Shown here: positions 52,266-64,000 of the stretch, one piece after another | Position numbering within the stretch: the first letter of the stretch is position 1 | Layout: each line of letters opens with the position of its first letter | Origin: Nitrospira sp. ND1 | Lineage (GTDB): Bacteria; Nitrospirota; Nitrospiria; Nitrospirales; Nitrospiraceae | Assembly: GCF_900170025.1 (NCBI RefSeq) | Contig: NZ_FWEX01000006.1 | Coordinates: forward strand, 2,223,625-2,287,624 | Direction: 5' to 3' | Length of the DNA stretch: 64,000 bases | Position numbers and translations under genes: made by a program | Notes under the pieces: generated by a model | What the model saw: only the letters and a program-made list of their open reading frames with translations | Told to the model about the DNA's origin: nothing | Database searches by the model: none

Positions 52266-53645
52266 ATGACTGAGGAATGGGGCGCGGTCCTGGTGGTCGA
52301 CGATGATGCCGACATGCGCAGCCTGCTGTGCGATGTCTTGCAGGGTCGCGGGCATCAATGCACGGGTGTCGGCAGTGGTGACGACGCGCTTCAGCGGCTG
52401 AGTGAGGAAGACTATGCCGTGGTCCTGACCGACCTTCGCATGAAAGGCATGTTGGGCACGGAGCTGTTGGCGGAGGTGAAACACCGGTATCCCGATATCG
52501 GCGTGATCCTGATGACGGCCTTCGGATCTGTGGAGACGGCGGTCGAGGCGATCCGGCATGGCGCCAGCGACTATCTGACCAAACCGGTCAAAACCGAGGA
52601 ACTGGTGCGGGTGGTCGAGCGCGCGATTCGGGAGGCGGCGCTCCGGCGCGAAGTCAGCCGGCTACGGAAAGAGGTGCACAAGGAGTACAGCTTTCATCAG
52701 ATTCTCGGCAAGAGCAAACCGATGCAGGCGGTCTTCGATCTGATTCGACGCGTGGCCGACAGTCCCACCAACGTGTTGATCACGGGAGAGAGCGGAACGG
52801 GAAAAGAACTGGTCGCCAAGGCCATTCATTACAACAGCGACCGGCGGGATGCGCCGTTTGTTCCGGTGAACTGCGCCGCGATCCCGGAACAATTGCTGGA
52901 AAGTGAACTCTTCGGGCACATGCGCGGCTCGTTTACAGACGCCAAAATGGACAAGCGCGGACTCTTTGAAGAGGCACAAAAAGGCACGTTGTTTCTGGAT
53001 GAAATCAGCGAACTTCCGCTCATGCTCCAGGCCAAACTCCTGCGCGCAATTCAGGAACGGGAAATCCGTCGCGTGGGGGCGACCAAATCTATTCCCGTGG
53101 ACGTGCGTATCATCGCCGCCACAAACTTGAACCTTTCCGAAGAAGTGAAGAATAAGCGATTCCGCGAAGATTTTTACTATCGCCTCAATGTGATCGAGTT
53201 GCGTCTTCCCCCGCTACGGGAACGTCGGGAGGATATTCCGATTCTGGTGGATGCCTTTCTAAAGAAGTGCGCCGACAGCAGGGGCAAGCAGGTCAAGGGC
53301 CTCAGCGAATCCGCCCTTGCCATGCTGGCCGACTATGCCTGGCCGGGGAATGTGCGGGAGTTGGAGAACGTCATTGAGCGGGCTGTCACGCTGAGCCATG
53401 GGGACATGATCGGCGCGGACGATTTGCCGGTGCAGGTGCAAGGCTCCAGAGGCGATCGCCGGATTCTCGATGAAGCCGCAGAACGCACCCTGCCACTGCA
53501 CGAAGTGGAAAAAGAGTACATCGTGAAAATTTTGGAAAAGACGGGTGGCAACAAGTATCAGGCCGCGCACGTCCTGGGTATCGATCGGAAGACCCTGTAT
53601 CGGAAGCTTGCCGAAATCGAAGGCAAACCACACTCAGACGCGTAG
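52266..53645 (+). CDS. NtrC-type sigma-54 activator response regulator
   Basis: A 459-residue regulator: receiver (1-120, VVDDDADM, phosphoacceptor in VVLTDLRMKGM, Lys in YLTKPVK), AAA+ domain (about 140-370, Walker A GESGTGKE, Walker B GTLFLDEI, arginine-finger region FREDFYYRLN), and a Fis-type HTH (GNKYQAAHVLGIDRKTLYRKL). The sigma-54-contacting loop reads GSFTDA rather than GAFTGA, keeping the key Phe-Thr. It is divergent from the MacA-like operon, whose sigma-54 promoter is the obvious target. The next gene is probably its kinase. Confidence 0.93.
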   Translation: MTEEWGAVLVVDDDADMRSLLCDVLQGRGHQCTGVGSGDDALQRLSEEDYAVVLTDLRMKGMLGTELLAEVKHRYPDIGVILMTAFGSVETAVEAIRHGASDYLTKPVKTEELVRVVERAIREAALRREVSRLRKEVHKEYSFHQILGKSKPMQAVFDLIRRVADSPTNVLITGESGTGKELVAKAIHYNSDRRDAPFVPVNCAAIPEQLLESELFGHMRGSFTDAKMDKRGLFEEAQKGTLFLDEISELPLMLQAKLLRAIQEREIRRVGATKSIPVDVRIIAATNLNLSEEVKNKRFREDFYYRLNVIELRLPPLRERREDIPILVDAFLKKCADSRGKQVKGLSESALAMLADYAWPGNVRELENVIERAVTLSHGDMIGADDLPVQVQGSRGDRRILDEAAERTLPLHEVEKEYIVKILEKTGGNKYQAAHVLGIDRKTLYRKLAEIEGKPHSDA

Positions 53646-53681: not shown

Positions 53682-56372
53682 GTGCAGCCCCTTCATCAGA
53701 AATCCCCGCTGTTCGAATCCGGCCTTCCATTGTTGTTGACGGTCGGGATCTTTGTCCTGGATCTGTCGGCGCCTGCCGGGATCGACCTGTGGCTGCTCTA
53801 TGCGGTTCCGTTCACTCTGATCGCGGTGTCCTCACTCGGGCAGATTCCCCGCTATTTTCTAGGGCTGGTGGCGTTGCTGGTGCTCATCGGCCCTGTTGTA
53901 TCCTCCGCCGGACCCCTGCCGCGCTCCATCGGCCTCAATCGTCTACTGGGCCTCGGGATCCTGGGGGCCGTGGCTGCGCTGGTTGCCCGCCGTCGGTCTT
54001 CTTCTGCGAGTCCGGATGCGAGCACAAGCTTGTCGTCCCGGGCGTTCACGACGGCGCGGGTTGAGCGGCATCAACCAGAGGCAGGCGAGGTTTCGGATGC
54101 GGAAGCGCGGGCCCGGGCTGAATCGGCGGTGGTCGGTGCGGTGACCGGACAACGTCGCGCCGAAGCAGAACTGCATCAGGACAAGCTCCGTTTCGAAGGC
54201 ATCGTGCACTCGGCGATGGACGCGATCATTACCGTCGACGAAGCGCACAAAATCGTGCTGTTCAATCAGGCGGCCGAAAAGATGTTTCAGTGGGGCGCCG
54301 AGGAAGTGCTGGGGCGGCCTCTGGATCGACTGCTTCCCGAGCGTTTCCGTAGCACCCACCATGAGCATATCCGGGAGTTCGGCCGTTCCGGCATCACGAC
54401 GCGCCAAATGGGTGCGCTGGGCATGGTGATGGGGGTGCGGGCCAACGGAGAGGAATTCCCGATCGAGGCCGCGATCTCGCAGATCGGTGTGGAAGGGAGG
54501 CGGTATTACACCGTCATCCTCCGCGACATTACGGAACGCCGGCGGCTCGAGCAGGAATTAGCGGAACGCGAGGCCCTGTTGCGGGCGATTATTGAGACCG
54601 AACCCGAATGTGTAAAGGTGCTTGATCTGGACGGCAGCGTTCGAACCATCAACGCCGCAGGGCTGGCCATGATCGAAGCAACGAGTAGTGCGGACATCGT
54701 CGGGCGGGATGTGTGCCACCTGGCCACGGCCGAGTTTCGGTCGGTCTACCGTGACCTGATCGGCAAGGCCGGGCGGGGGGAAGCGGGGCGACTGGAGTTT
54801 CAGATGGTCGGTCTCCTGGGGACTCCCCGATGGCTGGATACGCATGTGGTGCCGCTGCGATCAGCCGATGGCACCATTACGGCGGTCTTGGGTGTGACGC
54901 GCGATGTGACCGAGTGGAAAAAAACCGAGGCGCTGCTGCGCCAAAGCGAAGACCGGTATCGCCGGCTCCTGGCCGTCTTGCCCGATGCCATCCTGGTCAA
55001 TCGCGAGAACCGGATCTTTTTCGCCAATGAACAAGGGGTGCGTTTGTTCGGGGCCCGATCGGCCGAGGAGATTCTCGGCAAGTCGCTGTATGACCTGGCG
55101 CATCCCGACTATCACGAGATGATCGATGCGCGGATCCGGCATCTTCTGGGGCCCGGGAACACGGTGCCCGAGGTCGAGGAAAAGATCGTGCGCTTGGACG
55201 GGATGAGTGTGGACGTGGCTGTCAGGGCTGCGCGGTTTCAGGATGAGGAGGGGTTCGGCATCCTGGTCGTCCTGCGGGACATTTCGCTTCGAAAAGCCGC
55301 CGAGCAGAAGTTGCGGGAGAGCGAAGAGCGGCTTCAAAGTTTATTGGGAGCGATGGAGGATGTCATCTGGTCGTCGTCGCTGGATCTATCCACGATGTTT
55401 TATGTCAGTCCGTCCGTGATGGAGATCTATGGCCGGCCGCCCGACGCGTTTTTAGCCAGGCCTTCGTTATGGCTGGAGGCCGTTCATCCCGACGATTGCG
55501 TGATTGCGGAACAGGCGCGACAGGCCCTCTCGACAATGGGGGAGTTCGATGTGGAGTATCGCATCGTCAGGCTCGACGGCGATCTGCGTTGGCTACACGA
55601 CCGCGGGCGGGTCATCAAGGATGCCAAAGGCCGTCCGTTGCGCATCGACGGCATTGCCAGCGACATCACGGAGCGGAAGCGGTTGCAGGCGCAACTTCGC
55701 CGGACGGAGCGCGTGGCCGAACTGGGAACGGTGGCGTCCGGCATGGCGCATGAGATCGGCACACCCATGAACGTCATTCTGGGCCGGGCCGAATATCTGA
55801 TGGAGCGCACGAAGGAGGAGCCGGTCAGGAAGGGGCTCCAAACCATCGTCAGTCAGGTCGAACGAATTACGCGGGTGATGAATCAGTTGCTGGCGTTTGC
55901 CCGGCGACGTCCGGTCGAACACCGTGCCTTGGACTTGCGCCAGACCATCGAGGACAACCTGGAAATTTTCCAGGAACGCCTGTCGCAAAGTAACATCAGC
56001 GTGGAAACCTCCTTTGCCGACGCCTGCCCCTTGGTGCATGCCGATTCCGATCAGATGAGTCAGGTCTTGATCAACCTGGTGATGAATGCGATCCATGCGA
56101 TGCCCGGGGGAGGGGTTTTGAAGCTGTCACTGGCGCCGGACCGTGGCATGGTCCGGTTGACGGTGGCGGATACCGGCCACGGGATGCCCCGGGACGTGAT
56201 CGCCAAGGTGTTCGACCCGTTTTTCACCACCAAGGAGTTCGGGAAGGGAACCGGGTTAGGTTTGACTGTGGTGAAGGGCATCATTGAGGAACACAGCGGA
56301 ACGATTGAGGTGGAGAGTGAGCCTGAGCGGGGGACGACCTTCACCATTTGCCTGCCGATAGACAAGAGCTGA
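53682..56372 (+). CDS. Multi-PAS membrane sensor histidine kinase
   Basis: An 896-residue kinase. Three to four membrane helices (residues about 10-108) are followed by a coiled coil. Four PAS domains occupy about 165-660 (examples: FEGIVHSAMDAIITVDEAHK; LLAVLPDAILVNRENRIFF; SLLGAMEDVIWSSSLDLST). The HisKA domain has His690 (GTVASGMAHEIGTPMNVILG) and the HATPase domain has NLVMNAIHAMPGG, DTGHGMP and GTGLGLTVVKGI. Start GTG 53682 with GGGAG upstream. It lies 36 bp after the NtrC-type gene, so it is the likely cognate kinase. Confidence 0.92.
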   Translation: MQPLHQKSPLFESGLPLLLTVGIFVLDLSAPAGIDLWLLYAVPFTLIAVSSLGQIPRYFLGLVALLVLIGPVVSSAGPLPRSIGLNRLLGLGILGAVAALVARRRSSSASPDASTSLSSRAFTTARVERHQPEAGEVSDAEARARAESAVVGAVTGQRRAEAELHQDKLRFEGIVHSAMDAIITVDEAHKIVLFNQAAEKMFQWGAEEVLGRPLDRLLPERFRSTHHEHIREFGRSGITTRQMGALGMVMGVRANGEEFPIEAAISQIGVEGRRYYTVILRDITERRRLEQELAEREALLRAIIETEPECVKVLDLDGSVRTINAAGLAMIEATSSADIVGRDVCHLATAEFRSVYRDLIGKAGRGEAGRLEFQMVGLLGTPRWLDTHVVPLRSADGTITAVLGVTRDVTEWKKTEALLRQSEDRYRRLLAVLPDAILVNRENRIFFANEQGVRLFGARSAEEILGKSLYDLAHPDYHEMIDARIRHLLGPGNTVPEVEEKIVRLDGMSVDVAVRAARFQDEEGFGILVVLRDISLRKAAEQKLRESEERLQSLLGAMEDVIWSSSLDLSTMFYVSPSVMEIYGRPPDAFLARPSLWLEAVHPDDCVIAEQARQALSTMGEFDVEYRIVRLDGDLRWLHDRGRVIKDAKGRPLRIDGIASDITERKRLQAQLRRTERVAELGTVASGMAHEIGTPMNVILGRAEYLMERTKEEPVRKGLQTIVSQVERITRVMNQLLAFARRRPVEHRALDLRQTIEDNLEIFQERLSQSNISVETSFADACPLVHADSDQMSQVLINLVMNAIHAMPGGGVLKLSLAPDRGMVRLTVADTGHGMPRDVIAKVFDPFFTTKEFGKGTGLGLTVVKGIIEEHSGTIEVESEPERGTTFTICLPIDKS

Positions 56373-56633
56373 TAGCGTATTGCATGTAGCTTATGGCAGG
56401 GATTGAACAGTCTTTGGGAATGGTCGGCCTCTTTTCTTCGCTCGTGCCATACGCCATCGGCAATTCGCCATAAGCTCTACTCGTCCCGTTGTGGCGCTTC
56501 GGGACAGGGCTTTTTCAGAGGGTGGGGTCTTTCTCGCCAGAGGCCGGTTCATGCACCTACTGTTTGGAGAAACCTTCGGGGCTAGTTATCCATTGAATAC
56601 AATCAGTTGCTCGCTTTCACGCGCCGACGTGAG

Positions 56634-56648
56634 TGGCACATGGTTTGC
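56634..56648 (+). promoter_or_regulatory. Sigma-54 -24/-12 promoter of the receiver gene
   Basis: The sequence TGGCACATGGTTTGC is a full match to TGGCAC-N5-TTGC. The predicted start is near 56660, which argues that translation begins at GTG 56690 rather than ATG 56663. Confidence 0.7.
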
Positions 56649-56689
56649 GTTGTGTTGTCCCCATGGTGACCTATTCCGAGGGCTCGAAC

Positions 56690-57094
56690 GTGGAAAGTCG
56701 AACACCAGCGGTATTACTGGTGGTGGAAGACGACAAGGATATGCGGAGCTTGCTCTGCGACGAGTTGTGGGGAGAGGGATACCAATTGCGCGAGGCCAGC
56801 AACGGGGAAGAGGGGCTGGCGGCGGTCATGCGAGCGGCTCCCGATCTGATCGTGACCGACTTGAAAATGCCGGCCGGCGGTTTCGACTATGTCCATCGAT
56901 TGAGGAGCTGTGTGCCCGGTTGTCCGATTATCGTCATGACCGCCTTTGGCGATGCCCAGACCAAGGACGAGGCGATGAAAAACGGCGCGACGGCCTACTT
57001 CGACAAGCCGGTCAGGCTGTCGGAACTGAAGGCGACGGTCAAGCAACTCCTGCAACATCCAGGAAGCCGGTCCGAGGATGGACTGCTGCACTGA
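56690..57094 (+). CDS. Stand-alone response-regulator receiver
   Basis: A 134-residue single receiver domain with acidic pocket VVEDDKDM, phosphoacceptor Asp in LIVTDLKMPAGG, Thr in IVMTAFGDA and Lys in YFDKPVR. There is no output domain. It resembles the receiver of the NtrC-type gene at 52266 (shared KDMRSLLCDEL). The GTG start at 56690 has GAGGG upstream and fits the sigma-54 promoter just before it. It may act as a phosphate sink or protein-binding switch for the surrounding activators. Confidence 0.85.
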   Translation: MESRTPAVLLVVEDDKDMRSLLCDELWGEGYQLREASNGEEGLAAVMRAAPDLIVTDLKMPAGGFDYVHRLRSCVPGCPIIVMTAFGDAQTKDEAMKNGATAYFDKPVRLSELKATVKQLLQHPGSRSEDGLLH

Positions 57095-57237: not shown

Positions 57238-58641
57238 ATGGCCGGATCTCACTCACAGGGAACACCCTTTTCCCCCTTTACCGATCCGATTCTGGCCGCT
57301 CGGTTGGAAGCTCTGAAGCTCTTGGCCGACGGGCTGACCGACCGCGTGGCGGTGATGGATCGGGATCTCAATGTGGTCTATGCCAATGACGCCGCTTGGG
57401 CGAAGTCGGGGAATCCCTCTGCGGTCGCCAAGCCGGCCAAGTGTTATCAGGCTTTCGTTCACATGACAGACCCTTGCGGGACCTGTCCTGCTGAGTCGGT
57501 CTTTAAGACGGGGGAAGTGCTCACGGTCTCCTGCAACGCGTCGGGCGATGGGACTGCCTGCGGTATGCACCAGGCGTTTCCGCTCGTCTCGTCGGCAGGA
57601 GAGGTGGCCTCGATCCTCGTGCTCTTTCACAAGCGGCCGGAGCCGCTCAGCATTCCAGCGTCGCTGCCGCAGCAAAGGCTCGGTCGATCGCGCCCGGAAC
57701 GGACCGAATCGAGATTGGGCGATCTGGTCGGCGCGAGTCCGGCCATGAATCAGCTGTTTGAAATGATCCGGTTGGTGGCCGACAGTTCAGCCACGGTGTT
57801 GATCCAGGGTGAAAGCGGCACGGGAAAGGAACTCGTGGCCCGGACCATTCACCAGACGAGCTATCGTCGCGACAAGCCTTTTGTGGTGGTCGATTGCGGG
57901 GCGCTCCCGGAAACGTTGCTGGAGAGTGAACTGTTCGGCCATGTCAAAGGAGCGTTTACCGGAGCAGCCGGGGCCAAGTCCGGGCTGTTTGAAGAGGCCG
58001 ACGGGGGCACGATCTTTCTGGATGAGATAGCCGATACGTCTCCAACCTTCCAGGCTAAGCTTCTTCGAGTCTTGCAAGAAGGCGAGATCAAGCGAGTCGG
58101 CGGGACGCAGCCGGTCAAGATCAATGTCCGTGTCATCTCCGCCACCAATAAGGATCTGACTGACCTGGTCAAGGCCAAGGCATTTCGTCAGGACCTCTAC
58201 TATCGGTTAGCCGTGTTGCCCGTTCATTTGCCGCCGCTCCGTGACCGGAGGGTGGACATTCCCTTGTTGGTCGTAAAATTTATTGCCGACTCCTGCCAGC
58301 GGCATCGGCAGGATTTGCGTCAGGTGAATGAAGAGGCCATGCGTGCCTTGACGGCTGCGCCTTGGCCCGGGAATGTCCGTGAGCTCCAGCATTATATCGA
58401 GCGAGCCGTGGTGACCACGACCCATTCGGAACTGACCTGTGCGGATCTGGTCGAACTGGGGAGTCACCCTCAGGATACCGACCTCAGGACGGTCGGCCGG
58501 GGCGCGGCGCGACAGGCCGAGCGGGTGCGTATCCTTCAGGCATTGCAGCAGACCTCCGGGAATAGGGTGCAAGCGGCTCGTGTCCTTAAAATCAGCCGGG
58601 CCAGTCTCTACAACAAGCTGCACGAATTCGGCATTCAGTAG
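57238..58641 (+). CDS. PAS-domain sigma-54-dependent activator
   Basis: A 467-residue NtrC-class activator with an N-terminal PAS sensor (about 20-135) instead of a receiver. The sensor is cysteine-rich: [20 protein letters not shown] and later [14 protein letters not shown], suggesting metal or redox sensing. The AAA+ domain (about 160-390) has GESGTGKE, an intact GAFTGA loop ([13 protein letters not shown]) and GTIFLDEI; the Fis HTH is [21 protein letters not shown]. Start ATG 57238 with GAGGAG upstream. It is immediately upstream of the sigma-54 promoter of the multicopper oxidase and is its likely activator. Confidence 0.92.
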
Positions 58642-58783
58642 CTCAGCCCAGAGAGCCTGTTTTCAGGCCCTCCCCGCTTCTTGTCTCTATCCTAATCCTC
58701 TTCAGAATCAGTCCAATGGCTCTTCCTTTCGTAACCGCTAAGCGAGGAAGCTGTCCCGTATCGCCCCATAATTCACGATCTAA

Positions 58784-58801
58784 TGTCCAGCGGCTTGGAC
58801 A
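58784..58801. promoter_or_regulatory. Upstream activator dyad 1 for the multicopper oxidase promoter
   Basis: A perfect 6-6-6 dyad, TGTCCA-N6-TGGACA, is centred about 180 bp upstream of the -12/-24 element, a usual distance for NtrC-type enhancer sites. Confidence 0.55.
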
Positions 58802-58848
58802 GTCTAAGTAATTGTATTTTATATGTTCTTATCCTTGCCGAGGTGTGC

Positions 58849-58866
58849 TGTCTAATCGTCTGGAAA
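58849..58866. promoter_or_regulatory. Upstream activator dyad 2
   Basis: TGTCTA-N6-TGGAAA matches dyad 1 at five of six bases in each half-site. The centres are 65 bp apart, close to six helical turns, so two activator dimers could sit on the same face. Confidence 0.45.
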
Positions 58867-58962
58867 ACTGTGGCATTTTACGCCGGTTCAAAATTTCCCG
58901 CCTAAATCTTCAACTCCTTGAAAAATATATAACATTTCAGTCCGGCTAGGACTACCCCTAGT

Positions 58963-58977
58963 GGGCACATCAATTGC
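58963..58977 (+). promoter_or_regulatory. Sigma-54 -24/-12 promoter of the multicopper oxidase gene
   Basis: GGGCACATCAATTGC matches TGGCAC-N5-TTGC at all but the first base, with GG-N10-GC intact. The predicted transcript starts near 58989, giving a leader of about 227 nt before the ATG at 59216. Confidence 0.65.
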
Positions 58978-58990
58978 GTTGTTAGGCAGT

Positions 58991-59192
58991 GCTGGTGAAG
59001 GTGCGGGTGATTAGGACCGGCCTCCGAATGACCTGCTCCCTCGATCTTTGAGGACATCCTTCACCAGCCCTTTTTCCTTTTGGGAGCGTTTCGTGGAGGG
59101 AAAAAGGAGAGGCCGGAGGAGCCGGGGTCCTGCCTGACGGAGGCCGGTCACACGACCACGTTTTTTAACCACTCCCGCGGAAGGGCGCGGGA
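58991..59192 (+). promoter_or_regulatory. Structured mRNA leader, possible attenuator
   Basis: Stem A pairs 58991-59001 (GCTGGTGAAGG) with 59058-59068 and is followed by a T-rich run (CCCTTTTTCCTTTT), as in an intrinsic terminator. Stem B pairs 59015-59026 with 59138-59149 over 12 bases and has one arm inside the loop of A, so A and B compete or form a pseudoknot. A third stem (TCCCGCG 59173-59179 / CGCGGGA 59186-59192) lies just before the ribosome-binding site AAAGGAGG. No leader peptide was identified. Confidence 0.5.
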
Positions 59193-59215
59193 TTATAAAG
59201 GAGGGAGGCCGACAT

Positions 59216-62200
59216 ATGAGGTCTTCAGTGCAGTCAAAGCGCAGGCGCATCAGTCGTAAGGCGATGCTGAGCCTGCAGGCGGCGCTGCTCTCGGGCAGTT
59301 TGCTCGCGGCGCCGTGGGTGTTTGCGGCTGGTCCGGGCGATCAGTCGCATGAGGGACATGCGACGCCGGTCGCCATGCCGGGCTGGACACAGACCCTGAA
59401 GGGTCAGACCGTGGTGGAAAACGCCATGGAAGGTCGCGCCGGCAATGCAGAGAAGATGGAGATGCAGCACCACCGCCTGATGGAGAAGTTGGAACAGCAG
59501 GCGCAGACGGACGCGAAGGCGCAGCAGACCTCCGGTGCATTCAACGAAATGTCGATGATGCACCAGTATATGGGGCAGGACGGGAGCAGCTTCCTGTTGG
59601 CGTCCGATTCGTCGAAGGGCGAACCGGTGATGACGTCAGGGGGGAAATGTCCCGCCAATGCGCCGGTGAAGAAGTACGACGTTTCGATGATCAACATCGA
59701 AATCAGTTTGAACCGGTGGCTCGACTTCTATCCCGGGTATATGTACGTCCATACCGGGGAGATCGACAAGGTTCGCGCCGAGGAAACCAAGAACAAAGAA
59801 GCGCGGGAAAAAGACGGATTCGATCCTGGTGCGGTGACGACCGGAAACCAGGGCGATGCGATTCAGCCGCTGGTGCTCCGTGCCAACCAGGGCGATTGCG
59901 TCAAGATGACGTTGCGGAATCAGATGGAGGGTGAGGATGGCAGCTTGGTCATCCAGGCCTCCAGCATGATCGTGAGCGCCACGGGCAAGCCTGCGACGAC
60001 GACGAACCCGGACACGGTGGTTTCGCCGGGCAAGACGCAGGAGTTCGAATGGTACATTCATCCGAACATGCAGGAAGGTGTGCGGCAGTTCCACTCATGG
60101 AGCCATGATCGCGAGTTGACGGTGTTGGGCCTCTTCGGCGCCTTCATCGTCGAACCGAAGGGTTCCAAGTACCTCGATCCGCTCGGAACGGGCGCCGCGC
60201 CCGATACGAACAGCGGATGGCAGGTCATGATCGACAACGGGTCCGGACCGGACTTCCGCGAGTTCGTGTTGTTCTATCACGAGATCGGCGACGAAGCCTT
60301 CCGGCCGCTGAACAAGAAGGGTGACTTCTTGCCGCAGCGCGATCCGCTGACCGACGCCTATCGTCCGGGTGGCCGCGCGATCAACTATCGCAGCGAGCCG
60401 TTCGGCATCGATCAGATGCACTTACAGCACGAATATTTCGGCTTCGAAGATGAGTCGCTGGCCTACAGCGCCTACACCTTCGGTGACCCGCCCACCACGG
60501 TGGCCCGCGGCTACCTCGGTGATCCGGTCAAGTGGCGTTTGGTGCATGGTGGATCGGAAGTGTTCCACTCCCACCATCCGCACAGCGGAACCATCCGTTG
60601 GCAGCGCAGCCCGCGTGCCGATCAGGAAGAGCATTGGTTTAAGGGACAGGACGGACCGGTGAAGTATCCCGTGGTCCGGACGAAGTCCGATCGGGTGGAC
60701 GTCGAAGTGGTTGGTCCGTCCGAAGCGCTCGACCTGGAGCCGGAATGCGGCGGCGGTGGCTGTCAGCACCTGGCCGGCGAGTTCCTCTATCACTGCCACG
60801 TTGCGCACCACTATGTGGCGGGCATGTGGGGGTACGGCCGGTTCTACAATACGTTGCAGGTCGGCAATGCGCACACCGACACGATGCCGGATATGCGCGA
60901 GTTGCCGGATCGCCTGGGCCGTATGAAGCAGGGTGTCTCGTCGGATAAGTTGATCGGCACGACCGTCGACTGGTTCGGCAAGACCTTCAAGATCGTCGAC
61001 AAGAGCCAGAAGACGAACTGGAAGTCCGATCCTGTGATCGTGAACATCAAGGATTGGGTCGAGATGTTTGTTCCGGCCCAGGGTCAACCGGGCCACACGA
61101 GCGATGAGAAGGGCCAGATCATGGCCTACGATTCGACGGTGTGGGACTGGAAGTGGGACGGCAACATCGCCCGCGGCGAGCGGGAGAGCACCGCTCCGAA
61201 TCCGAAGTATGCGTGGGCTGCGAAGTGGGATGACAGCACCAGACCGGCGATCCTGTTCGATCCGACGACAGGGAAAATGGCCTGGCCGTTGTTCAAGCCG
61301 CACTTCGGCAAGCGCGTGCCGTTCTCGGCGAACCACAGCGGTGCGCCATGGTTGGAGCCGATTCACCAGGATGCCAACGGTGAGCGGACCTCCGAGCCGG
61401 CGATGCCGGGCGAACAGGGCCGTTGGAGCCTGTGCCCTGACAACGCCAATCGGAAGCATTACAACATTCACTTTGTCCGCATGCCGATCACCCTTGCTAA
61501 GAAGCAGGGGAAAGAGCCGGCCATGGTGGACAAGGATGGTCTGATCTACGTCCTTCACGAAGAAGAGCGTTTGACCAGAGCCAATGACGATCTCAAGCTG
61601 CCCGCCGTCATCCGCGCCAACGTGTATGACTGCGTGGACTTGTTGTTGACCAGCGAATGGGACGACGACGATTACACGAATTTCCAGTCGTCCAAAATCA
61701 ACATCCATCCACACTTCTTCCAGTTCGACACCGGGAATTCGGACGGTGTGATCTCCGGGATGGAGTACGAAATGTCGGTCCGGCCGTTCACCATGTGGGG
61801 GAAGAAGACCAAGCATGGTTTGCCGGCACCGATGGTTGCGAAGCTCACGGGCGAGGCGAAAGCCGGCGCCACCTCCATCAAGATCCAGATGGCGCCCGGC
61901 GCCACCGCGTTCCACGTCAACACCGAGTTGATGGTGGGCATGGATTGTTTGGAGAAGGGCAACGATCCGGCGGCCTCACTGCCGCGGGATAAGAGCTGTC
62001 AGGAAGTCGCCCGGGTCAAGGAGATCAAGGGCGATGTCGTCACGTTCTTCAAGCCGCTGAAGCACCATCACCCGGCGGGCGATCTCGTGTCGCCGGAGTT
62101 CGTGCGCTATCGGTGGTGGGTGGACGTGGATATGGGAACCGTGTTCTGGCATGACCACGCGTTCGGCGCGACGACCTGGCCCCATGGCGGGTTCGGCGTG

Positions 62201-64000
62201 ACGATCGTAGAGCCATTCGGATCCACCTACCATGATCCGAAGAACGGCAAGTTGGTATATAGCGGTCCGATCGCGGACATTCACAGCAACGAGCCGATCG
62301 GTGCCGGTGTCAGCGGCAGCTTCCGTGAGTTGATGGTCTCCATCCACGACACGGTTCCGCACACCGTCAACGTCATCGAAGCCGGCAATCCTCCCGGACA
62401 GCCGATCGAAGTGGCGTTGGAAGCAGGAAAGACGGTGTCCTTCCAGATGCCGGACAAGATCCTGAATGCGCCGAACAAGTACATCAACGGCGGCACGCAC
62501 ACGACCGGCAGCGGTTTCAACTTCCGCGCGGCTCCGTTTGCACAACGCCTGTCTAACAATCCTGACACGTCCAAGCTGTTCAGCAGCGCGATCCACGGTG
62601 ATCCGGGCACGCCGCTTCTCCGGGCGTACACGGGCGACACCATGGTGTTCCGTCTGTTGCACCAGCTGATGAACGAATCCCACGTCTGGACGATCGCCGG
62701 ACATACCTTCCTTACGGAGCGGTACGCGCCGGAAGCCAACCGGAAGAACTCGATTCACGTCGGGATCGCCGAGCGGTACGACCTCGTCACCAAGGCGGGT
62801 GGATTCCAGGGTATGCCGGGTGACTACATCCACTTCAACGGCAGAACGTCACACTTCGCCGAAGGTGGATGGGGCATCATTCGCGTGCTCGACAAGGAAG
62901 TGGCGGACTTGAAGCCGCTGCCCAAGGGGACCAATCCTCTCGGGATTCCAGCGACTCCTAATTCCGTGTGTCCGTCGGATGCCCCGGTGAAGAGCTTCAA
63001 CGTCGTGGCGTTGGATCGCCCGATGAAGCTCAATCCGAAGGCCCCGGATGCGATCGAGGTGGACTTCGAGCGGAAGATCGAAATGACCATGCCGGAAGGC
63101 AAGATCTTCGCGCTGGAGGAAGAAGCCGCGACCGTCGCGGGCAACGTGATGCCGAATCCGCTCACGCTGCGCGCCAATCTGGGCGATTGCATCAAGGTGA
63201 ATCTGAAGAACAAGATGAAGGCGAGCCGGGCGTCGTTCTTTGCGCCGGGTCTGGCCTTCGATCCGAAGGACAGCCAGGGCTTGAACGTCGGCAACAATGC
63301 CGGCGATCAGACCGTGGCTCCGGGCGAAAGCCGCACCTATACCTACTACGCGCATCCTGCAAACAAGGAAACGACGTCGTTGGTGTGGGACGGTGGTAAC
63401 ATCGTCGTCAATCCGCGCAACGGATTGTACGGCGCGATCGTCATCGGGCCGAAGGGATCGCAGTATCGTGATCCAGTCACCGGTGCCGATGTGTCACAGA
63501 AGAACACATGGCGGGCCGACGTCATCGTCGACACCACCTTGTCTGAAAATGCCGGAAAGCGGAACTATCGTGACGTGGCCCTCTTCTTCCAAGATGAGGA
63601 CAACATCATCGGAACCGCCTTCATGCCCTATGTGCAGAACGTGGCCGGTTTGACGTCGGTGAACTACCGCGCTGAACCGTACAAGTTCCGTGAAGAACAA
63701 GGGTGCTCCTTGGGCAAAATCTTCCAGCCTTGCGCGGTCGATAAGCCCGAAGATCCCGTGACGCCTTTGATCGAGGCGCACGCGGGTGATGCGCTCCGTA
63801 TCCATGTGATCGGAGCGAACAGCGAGCAGAACGGCATGTTCAGCGTCGAGGGCCACGAGTGGCCGATCGAGCCGTACATGGCGGGTGCCGACATGATCAG
63901 CGTGGTGGAGTATGCCGGATCTGAGATCCTCGATGTCTTCATCCGTGGCGGTGCGGGCGGACCGTATCGTCAGGTGGGTGACTTCGTGTGGTCGAATGCA
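59216..64000 (+). CDS. Giant multicopper oxidase, MofA/MnxG-like (3' end outside window)
   Basis: The frame stays open for 1595 codons to the window end. A basic N-terminus and hydrophobic core (MLSLQAALLSGSLLAAPWVFA) indicate export. The protein is a chain of cupredoxin-type domains. Copper-site motifs are QFHSWSH (about 291), VFHSHHPH (about 450), LYHCHVAHHYVAGMW (about 525), VFWHDHAFG (about 977) and HVWTIAGHTF (about 1160). The size and motif spread resemble the large MofA/MnxG manganese oxidases; similar giant oxidases are common in Nitrospira, where their substrate is unsettled. Expression appears sigma-54-dependent with a structured leader. AAAGGAGG precedes the ATG. Confidence 0.85.
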   Translation, partial: MRSSVQSKRRRISRKAMLSLQAALLSGSLLAAPWVFAAGPGDQSHEGHATPVAMPGWTQTLKGQTVVENAMEGRAGNAEKMEMQHHRLMEKLEQQAQTDAKAQQTSGAFNEMSMMHQYMGQDGSSFLLASDSSKGEPVMTSGGKCPANAPVKKYDVSMINIEISLNRWLDFYPGYMYVHTGEIDKVRAEETKNKEAREKDGFDPGAVTTGNQGDAIQPLVLRANQGDCVKMTLRNQMEGEDGSLVIQASSMIVSATGKPATTTNPDTVVSPGKTQEFEWYIHPNMQEGVRQFHSWSHDRELTVLGLFGAFIVEPKGSKYLDPLGTGAAPDTNSGWQVMIDNGSGPDFREFVLFYHEIGDEAFRPLNKKGDFLPQRDPLTDAYRPGGRAINYRSEPFGIDQMHLQHEYFGFEDESLAYSAYTFGDPPTTVARGYLGDPVKWRLVHGGSEVFHSHHPHSGTIRWQRSPRADQEEHWFKGQDGPVKYPVVRTKSDRVDVEVVGPSEALDLEPECGGGGCQHLAGEFLYHCHVAHHYVAGMWGYGRFYNTLQVGNAHTDTMPDMRELPDRLGRMKQGVSSDKLIGTTVDWFGKTFKIVDKSQKTNWKSDPVIVNIKDWVEMFVPAQGQPGHTSDEKGQIMAYDSTVWDWKWDGNIARGERESTAPNPKYAWAAKWDDSTRPAILFDPTTGKMAWPLFKPHFGKRVPFSANHSGAPWLEPIHQDANGERTSEPAMPGEQGRWSLCPDNANRKHYNIHFVRMPITLAKKQGKEPAMVDKDGLIYVLHEEERLTRANDDLKLPAVIRANVYDCVDLLLTSEWDDDDYTNFQSSKINIHPHFFQFDTGNSDGVISGMEYEMSVRPFTMWGKKTKHGLPAPMVAKLTGEAKAGATSIKIQMAPGATAFHVNTELMVGMDCLEKGNDPAASLPRDKSCQEVARVKEIKGDVVTFFKPLKHHHPAGDLVSPEFVRYRWWVDVDMGTVFWHDHAFGATTWPHGGFGVTIVEPFGSTYHDPKNGKLVYSGPIADIHSNEPIGAGVSGSFRELMVSIHDTVPHTVNVIEAGNPPGQPIEVALEAGKTVSFQMPDKILNAPNKYINGGTHTTGSGFNFRAAPFAQRLSNNPDTSKLFSSAIHGDPGTPLLRAYTGDTMVFRLLHQLMNESHVWTIAGHTFLTERYAPEANRKNSIHVGIAERYDLVTKAGGFQGMPGDYIHFNGRTSHFAEGGWGIIRVLDKEVADLKPLPKGTNPLGIPATPNSVCPSDAPVKSFNVVALDRPMKLNPKAPDAIEVDFERKIEMTMPEGKIFALEEEAATVAGNVMPNPLTLRANLGDCIKVNLKNKMKASRASFFAPGLAFDPKDSQGLNVGNNAGDQTVAPGESRTYTYYAHPANKETTSLVWDGGNIVVNPRNGLYGAIVIGPKGSQYRDPVTGADVSQKNTWRADVIVDTTLSENAGKRNYRDVALFFQDEDNIIGTAFMPYVQNVAGLTSVNYRAEPYKFREEQGCSLGKIFQPCAVDKPEDPVTPLIEAHAGDALRIHVIGANSEQNGMFSVEGHEWPIEPYMAGADMISVVEYAGSEILDVFIRGGAGGPYRQVGDFVWSNA

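Follow-up and report, generated by a model that had tools for sequence, protein, structure and literature searches.

A structured leader RNA behind a putatively enhancer-controlled sigma-54 promoter of Nitrospira and its possible pairing with the mRNA of a paralogous copper oxidase

Activator-driven sigma-54 promoters give rise to separate regulatory small RNAs, as in the case of Qrr, GlmY/GlmZ, CrcZ and NrsZ. The RNA described here differs from these in that it heads a protein-coding mRNA. For fifteen groups of EBPs, the spacers of the enhancer sites measure 10-12 bp, a range that includes TGT-N12-ACA (PMC6615313), and the NifA site at nifH is TGT-N10-ACA (PMC10590331). By this measure, the enhancer part of the Nitrospira locus is an ordinary EBP site. 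Like the sites of the NifA/FhlA type (TGT-N10-12-ACA), it has a TGT-N12-ACA inverted repeat, an activator with a Fis-type HTH and a location 98-180 bp upstream of -24/-12. It differs from them in its longer half-site (TGTCYA), in the spacing of the pair (64-69 bp apart) and in that this genome holds one exact site.

For the RNA, two described leaders come closest. In Listeria, the riboswitch leaders SreA and SreB have been proposed to act as RNAs both in cis and in trans, in the latter case on the start region of another mRNA (PMC8079631). In Rhodobacteraceae, a Rho-independent terminator in the 5' UTR gives rise to the 5' UTR-derived sRNA UpsM, which stems from a long leader, is conserved within a single family in the published account and has a proposed role in trans (PMC5089854). 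The Nitrospira RNA shares the proposed double action of SreA/SreB, whereas it has no known ligand or conserved terminator, its putative target is a paralogue of the leader's own gene, and the predicted pairing covers the Shine-Dalgarno sequence itself. From UpsM it differs in the operon to which it belongs and in the terminator that UpsM is described as having. Since it has no known ligand, no conserved terminator and no match in Rfam, it was not filed as a member of either, and no description of the RNA or its pairing was found in the literature searched.

Enhancer dyads and the sigma-54 promoter

The window is the whole stretch of 64,000 nucleotides of Nitrospira sp. ND1 DNA that was analysed (C6:2223625-2287624). 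The earlier note had pointed to the dyad TGTCCA-N6-TGGACA and a near copy of it, 65 bp apart and about 100-180 bp upstream of a -24 element, and had read them as enhancer sites of the NtrC type. On direct reading, the dyads are present as claimed:

58784..58801, no strand: distal enhancer dyad TGTCCAgcggctTGGACA (TGTCCA-GCGGCT-TGGACA), read from the sequence and its conservation
58849..58866, no strand: proximal enhancer dyad TGTCTAatcgtcTGGAAA (TGTCTA-ATCGTC-TGGAAA), read likewise
58964..58977, + strand: sigma-54 promoter -24/-12 (GG-N10-GC), with GG at 58964-58965 and GC at 58976-58977

The distal dyad (58784-58801) is a perfect inverted repeat of the TGT-N12-ACA type. From start to start the two dyads are 65 bp apart; the -24 GG (58964) lies 180 bp downstream of the start of the distal dyad and 98 bp downstream of the end of the proximal one, in agreement with the distances first given. 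Transcription would start near 58989.

Within the window, the pattern TGTCYA-N6-TGGAMA occurs without mismatch at these two places only. With up to two mismatches it is not enriched there (12 matches against 10.06 +/- 3.61 expected, a number that 37 of 100 shuffles reach), so that motif counting alone is weak proof and was kept out of the evidence. The genome-wide counts at two mismatches (221 forward, 93 for the reversed pattern) were left out as well, because reversing the pattern controls poorly for base and codon composition. A genome scan for the motif upstream of other sigma-54 promoters had also been proposed; the strict form TGTCYA-N6-TRGACA was found without mismatch at one place in the whole genome (none for the reversed-pattern control), and few or no further targets are expected at other promoters.

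The decisive evidence that the dyads exceed chance is their conservation, which sequence comparison confirms. A search by DNA similarity yielded 30 related loci, of which 26 belong to the same genus and 4 to other genera. Both dyads are present in 29 of these with at most two mismatches, 65-66 bp apart; the exception, L033, retains one dyad. The comparison was widened to 45 sites of the RNA described below (40 regions of 34 genomes of the order, chosen for variety). At 39 of them a -24/-12 element (GG-N10-GC with GGY and TGC at a fixed place) lies 13-15 nt before the RNA, as in 0.9% of shuffles; the sites were sorted into a sigma-54 type and a second type after inspection, so that the per-type promoter counts (39/39 and 0/6) are circular. 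All 39 sigma-54-type sites have at least one dyad with at most two mismatches (3.8% of shuffles), and 36 have one with at most one mismatch (0.36% of shuffles). A pair 63-69 bp apart is present in 27 of the 39 at one mismatch or fewer and in 31 at two or fewer, and in none of the shuffled upstream DNA. The spacing in the 31 paired sites is 66 bp in fifteen, 65 and 67 bp in seven each, and 64 and 69 bp in one each. The eight sites lacking a pair at this spacing comprise seven with a single dyad near -210 (L106a, L112a, L113a, L115a, L120a, L134a, L135a) and L123a, where two dyads stand 79 bp apart. Compensatory change between the half-sites was considered and rejected: the halves TGTCYA and TRGACA vary independently, which indicates a degenerate half-site.

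The conserved pair and its spacing, together with the promoter, an adjacent sigma-54 activator and the presence of rpoN in the genome, support the reading of the dyads as EBP enhancer sites of the TGT-N12-ACA type, at which binding is predicted.

The structured leader of MCO1

The region between the promoter and the next gene holds the following features:

58991..59068, + strand: structured leader RNA, a three-way junction with a closing stem formed by 58991-59001 and 59058-59068
59014..59025, + strand: apical hairpin GGACCGGCCUCC (GGA-CCGGCC-UCC), complementary to the ribosome-binding site of MCO2 over 12 nt and to that of MCO1 over 8 nt
59138..59149, + strand: leader element CGGAGGCCGGUC, a perfect 12-nt complement of the hairpin region 59015-59026, present in the genus and in some other genera
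59204..59211, + strand: MCO1 ribosome-binding site GGAGGCCG, a full complement of part of the hairpin (8 nt)
59216..64000, + strand: MCO1, a multicopper oxidase of 1,645 aa, weakly MnxG-like, which extends past the window end to C6:2287774

The earlier note had overlooked that the promoter would head a conserved structured RNA. DNA similarity in most other genera shrinks to about 43 bases starting at 58990-58991. The RNA of about 80 nt folds with -40.5 kcal/mol (58991-59068; z -4.5), and a similar fold is predicted for a divergent member of family f3 (z -3.9). With a covariance model built from 29 sequences, a threshold of E <= 0.01 and strict filters, 182 out of 235 genomes from the order were found to carry the RNA, and these represent 27 of 37 genera and three families (f2 through a single genome); genomes called RNA-less below are those in which none was detected. 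In an alignment of 51 sequences, which was fitted to the RNA model and thus leans towards it, two-sided changes are found in 22 of 27 pairs (190 cells against 48.0 +/- 8.1 when shuffled), and 92.8% of the cells are paired, compared with 78.9% after shuffling and 40.5-53.8% with the partner slid. All 11 pairs of the closing stem show such two-sided changes; the weak part is helix 3, with 72% of cells paired. Covariation above the controls marks this as a conserved structured RNA. Its apical hairpin GGACCGGCCUCC is exact in 42 of the 45 sites, and the tip includes CGGCCUCC.

A known RNA family was rejected as an explanation. A permissive Rfam scan across 58600-59300 produced a single match at chance level (16.3 bits, gathering score 81, E 4.5), and three divergent loci gave none at gathering score. 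An intrinsic terminator ending a stand-alone small RNA was considered too. The sequence next to the closing stem is mostly CCCUUUUU within this genus and CUCUUA, CACUUA or CACCAA in other genera; no entry for the U-rich tract that follows the RNA appeared in the terminator scan. Because this tract is not kept outside the genus, a conserved terminator was rejected and a terminated small RNA is not supported in general by the sequences compared. According to the predicted fold, the tract and an A-rich strand further downstream form a second, long hairpin (59069-59107).

Outside the order, an exact-pattern scan of genome contigs gave at least 118 loci. The RNA model was then run on 69 of them, the other 49 listed loci all bearing Nitrospira-type labels. 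Among the 25 loci not labelled as Nitrospira or relatives, RNA matches were found in two, L238 and L239. The former (JAJFLV010000092.1), in a MAG labelled Opitutales, carries the RNA on what is probably a misbinned contig of a Nitrospira relative; the latter, labelled Nitrosospira (isolate CMX), is probably comammox.

In all 45 sites the same multicopper oxidase match begins 163-401 nt downstream of the RNA. The frames behind it measure about 1,600 aa, except for L106a with 931 aa and L106b, which is truncated where the stretch ends. MCO1 itself scores 110 bits with the MnxG model NCBIfam NF041487 over the 1,594 residues inside the window, below the cut-off of 3100. The protein family was noted earlier in Nitrospina and Ca. 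N. defluvii as similar to the manganese oxidase of Bacillus SG-1, with a proposed role towards manganese or reactive oxygen (PMC3578206); regulation, a leader RNA and the pairing of paralogues are not mentioned in that account's treatment of the oxidase. Two side observations concern the oxidase loci. At L345:1445-3438, genes for two FGE-sulfatase (formylglycine-generating-like) proteins lie behind those of MCO1 and its CarboxypepD_reg partner, and at G020:C12:138416-143338 the oxidase match has six in-frame TGA codons, owing to decay or assembly errors.

Six of the 45 RNA sites (L106b, L108a, L112b, L113b, L115b, L127a) have neither the -24/-12 element nor the dyad pair, L115b showing one dyad match with two mismatches. 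The RNA therefore belongs to oxidase mRNAs and not to this promoter alone. The RNA of these six is of a second type, mostly UCUGG...GGACCGGCCUCCUGA, upstream of further oxidase paralogues; for four of them, a sigma-54-type copy is found 7-10 kb upstream.

The hairpin can also face the start of its own gene. GGAGGCCG precedes the start codon in 33 of the 39 sigma-54-type sites and in 2 of the 6 others; variants occur at L113a, L115a and L132a, and no such site was found at L106a, L112a and L134a. The bases beyond GGAGGCCG vary freely at the MCO1 start, while in several family-f3 sites the loop pairing in cis reaches 9 nt. The hairpin-MCO1 duplex has an energy of -21.1 kcal/mol, the best of 86 open-frame starts in the window reaching -23.5, and the cis match is unremarkable by this measure. 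The leader element at 59138-59149, whose end lies 66 nt upstream of the MCO1 start, is a possible competitor of the ribosome-binding sites.

Complementarity to the start of a second oxidase

MCO2 is a paralogue of MCO1 with 68% identity, located at C6:2933569-2938386. At its start stands AAGGAGGCCGGUCC-AUG, which complements GGACCGGCCUCC perfectly over 12 nt. The exact 12-mer is found in the genome at three places: in the RNA (opposite strand), at the MCO2 site and inside a DegP-like frame, the last of which is taken as chance. With 47 matches to GGAGGCCG-N2-7-ATG in the same genome and 26 to the reversed pattern, specificity is confined to the 12-mer and does not extend to the 8-mer.

In RNA-bearing genomes, 39 MCO2 starts were compared, namely that of the own genome, 36 picked from the second-oxidase places listed (about 67-70% identity) and two from family f3. 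The exact 12-mer stands before 35 of them and the other four have it with one mismatch, while the flanking columns are conserved to 31-69% upstream and 33-77% downstream. The pattern used in aligning the starts tolerates three positions; by the looser lists all 39 fit and L307 does not. L307 is the other oxidase fetched from the RNA-bearing genome G218 (65% identity), in which the motif is absent. In G074, G081, G088 and G218 the comparison covers part of the oxidases present. When RNA and MCO2 start were compared directly within 19 genomes, 12 of 12 bases were paired in 16 and 11 in three, and the three one-mismatch pairs checked for compensatory change were all uncompensated. Both pairs checked from family f3 match over 14 nt, two further bases that reach into the start codon being included.

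The loop region and the MCO2 start form a predicted duplex of -30.2 kcal/mol, compared with -23.5 for the best of the 86 open-frame starts in the window, and none of 1000 shuffles reaches it. Complementarity to the start region of a target, conserved among genomes as for an antisense RNA acting in trans, is thus what the comparison found. The 12-bp duplex alone amounts to -27.3 kcal/mol, and opening the two hairpins costs 6.0 and 6.7 kcal/mol. In minimum-energy co-folding of the RNA with the MCO2 start region, the duplex did not form (-59.9 kcal/mol, the sum of the parts), because both hairpins must open.

MCO2 has a promoter of the sigma-70 type (TTGACA/-10) in 38 of the 39 cases, and a -24/-12-like match in one (L330). 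Proteins with CarboxypepD_reg/fn3 follow both MCO1 and MCO2. With the same followers and different promoters, the two look like paralogous operons. A second copy of AAGGAGGCCGGUCC lies upstream of the copy at the MCO2 start in two cases, by 300 nt in L330 (L330:1167), where it precedes a reading frame of 11 codons, and by 70 nt in L287 (L287:1671); it could be a decoy or mark a leader peptide.

The predicted pairing is not bound to fixed orthologues. A quick-method tree of the oxidases (73 rows, long branches flagged, seven unrelated frames on very long branches ignored) resolves MCO1 and MCO2 as separate groups within family f1. Most of the RNA-linked oxidases of family f3 (L117, L118, L119a, L120, L121, L133-L136) fall on the MCO2 side, and only L119b joins MCO1; the RNA is therefore not tied to one orthologous oxidase. 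In G081, G088 and G224 the 12-mer precedes a further paralogue. What appears constant among the sequences compared is that one oxidase mRNA carries the RNA and another has the complement of it at its start, with no fixed pair of orthologues.

Genomes in which no RNA was detected offer a natural control that is suggestive only. The exact 12-mer is found at MCO2 in 9 of 18 such genomes, against 35 of 39 with the RNA (Fisher p = 0.0018, ignoring relatedness). The set of 18 omits L290, L309, L310, L311, L315, L316, L317, L318 and L319, which were judged not to be of the MCO2 type or to have an unreadable start, and the start regions of G077 and G208 were taken from start-region reading and not from score-picked places. 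Six of the nine RNA-less genomes that keep the 12-mer are less than 90% complete and three are at least 90% complete; one of these three, G012, contains a fragment of 353 aa with 93% identity to MCO1, so that the RNA may be missing from the assembly. The nine without the exact 12-mer include G181 (91% complete) and G208 (99%), each with one oxidase match, in which the MCO2-type start reads GGAGGCUGGUCC and GGAGGCUGGCUC, respectively.

On these grounds, we lean, if only slightly, towards the reading that the enhancer-controlled leader RNA acts in trans as a repressor of MCO2 and in cis as a modulator of its own gene. Its main weaknesses are that both hairpins must open, that co-folding gives no duplex and that there is no conserved terminator to release a small RNA.

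A different reading makes the leader purely cis-acting: a riboswitch-like or protein-sensing three-way junction whose loop masks the ribosome-binding site of its own gene, the MCO2 site being a relic of the same ancestral leader. The constant position just upstream of an oxidase homologue suits it, as do the frequency of GGAGGCCG before the start codon, the longer loop pairing in several family-f3 sites, the copies of the RNA that have no sigma-54 promoter, and the oxidases on the MCO2 side of the tree that the RNA precedes in family f3. Such a relic would nevertheless have to explain why complementarity spans 12 nt at MCO2 and 8 at MCO1, why the extra GGUCC is kept at MCO2 while the flanks vary freely, and why the exact 12-mer is rarer where no RNA was detected. 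We hold a purely cis-acting leader to be rather unlikely.

It seems quite improbable that an RNA-binding protein recognises GGA-N6-UCC hairpins at both operons with no pairing between the RNAs. The RNA tip GGA-CCGGCC-UCC and the MCO2 site GGA-GGCCGG-UCC both form hairpins of 3 bp with 6-nt loops, and the hairpin is visible in the MCO2 fold; the two loops, however, differ and are yet exact complements, which a common protein does not require.

A stem at the 5' end can protect an mRNA. One could accordingly suppose that only enhancer and promoter are functional, the RNA being a 5' stabiliser of a long mRNA and the complementarity a coincidence of an extended Shine-Dalgarno sequence, as GGAGG is matched by any CCUCC loop. 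This is hard to reconcile with the seven further target bases conserved at MCO2 and with a tip that is nearly invariant while the closing stem covaries throughout, and we give it little credence.

The activator and the proposed exchange of oxidases

The trans reading with tuning in cis further involves the activator gene upstream of the dyads:

57238..58641, + strand: sigma-54 activator and presumed dyad binder, with AAA+ domain, Fis-type HTH and a probable PAS-type N-terminus
56633..57094, + strand: stand-alone response regulator adjoining the activator, with a receiver-domain match only

The activator matches PF00158 (Sigma54_activat, E 7.9e-73) and PF02954 (Fis-type HTH, E 7.4e-11), and GAFTGA is seen in its translation. 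With 360 bits it stays below the NifA cut-off of NCBIfam TIGR01817 (528.85). The N-terminus of the window protein has no Pfam match and no sequence match in PDB; among 23 orthologues, PAS_4 was matched in four and PAS_8 in one. A structure model of this part (pLDDT 71.6, pTM 0.65) has PAS domains as its best PDB fold matches (E 8.3e-05, TM 0.48 by query length), so that the domain is probably of the PAS fold. C80, C83 and C108 (CxxC...C) are invariant in the 23 aligned orthologues with a readable N-terminus, and our guess would be a redox or metal signal at these cysteines. Preceding the activator are an NtrC-type response regulator (52266-53645), a multi-PAS histidine kinase (53682-56372) and the stand-alone receiver (56633-57094); the receiver-domain match stands beside the activator in relatives too.

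Upstream of the sigma-54-type site, 27 of 38 loci encode an orthologue of the activator (partial in L133, in two pieces in L134). Four loci (L106, L112, L113, L115) have other activators, which match over the AAA+ part only, and seven have no such activator next door within the stretch fetched. That fewer dyads are found at L106, L112, L113 and L115 fits weakly with the pair belonging to the 57238 activator; the argument is weak because L120a, L134a and L135a have the orthologue and only one dyad. These three, and the seven loci with dyads and no neighbouring activator, are what speaks for another regulator at the dyads, for instance the NtrC-type one at 52266 or a repressor, an alternative that is very unlikely given that the dyads are of a known EBP type at an enhancer position, that the 56633 regulator matches a receiver domain only, with no recognised DNA-binding part, and that the orthologue is so often upstream.

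The mechanism proposed for the trans reading is as follows. The 57238-58641 activator would bind both TGT-N12-ACA dyads and open the sigma-54 promoter at 58964-58977. The transcript, starting from about 58989, would open with a rigid three-way-junction RNA displaying the fixed hairpin GGA-CCGGCC-UCC. Once the promoter is on, this RNA, either as the leader part of the MCO1 mRNA or as a released fragment, would pair in trans with the MCO2 ribosome-binding site and block translation of the MCO2 operon driven by its sigma-70-type promoter, while the same hairpin would pair more weakly with the MCO1 site and tune MCO1 in cis. The net effect would be the exchange of one periplasmic copper oxidase for its paralogue on the activator's signal. 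Tentatively, and with somewhat less assurance, it may be generalised that in this order of nitrifiers an RNA from an enhancer-controlled sigma-54 promoter silences a sigma-70-driven paralogous oxidase in trans, so that a leader swaps isoenzymes in at least two families.

In one transcriptome of N. moscoviensis, small RNAs were removed before sequencing, so that such an RNA could have been missed there (PMC6606698). The sequences at hand are exact and open to test. They comprise an enhancer motif, the predicted start site, an antisense tip of 12 nt and a single named target. By themselves, the dyads are an ordinary enhancer prediction. Together with the RNA, they become the likely input of a widely conserved RNA element in Nitrospira, which are major nitrite oxidisers, and would connect a signal-sensing activator with the selection of one of two large copper oxidases whose function is uncertain.
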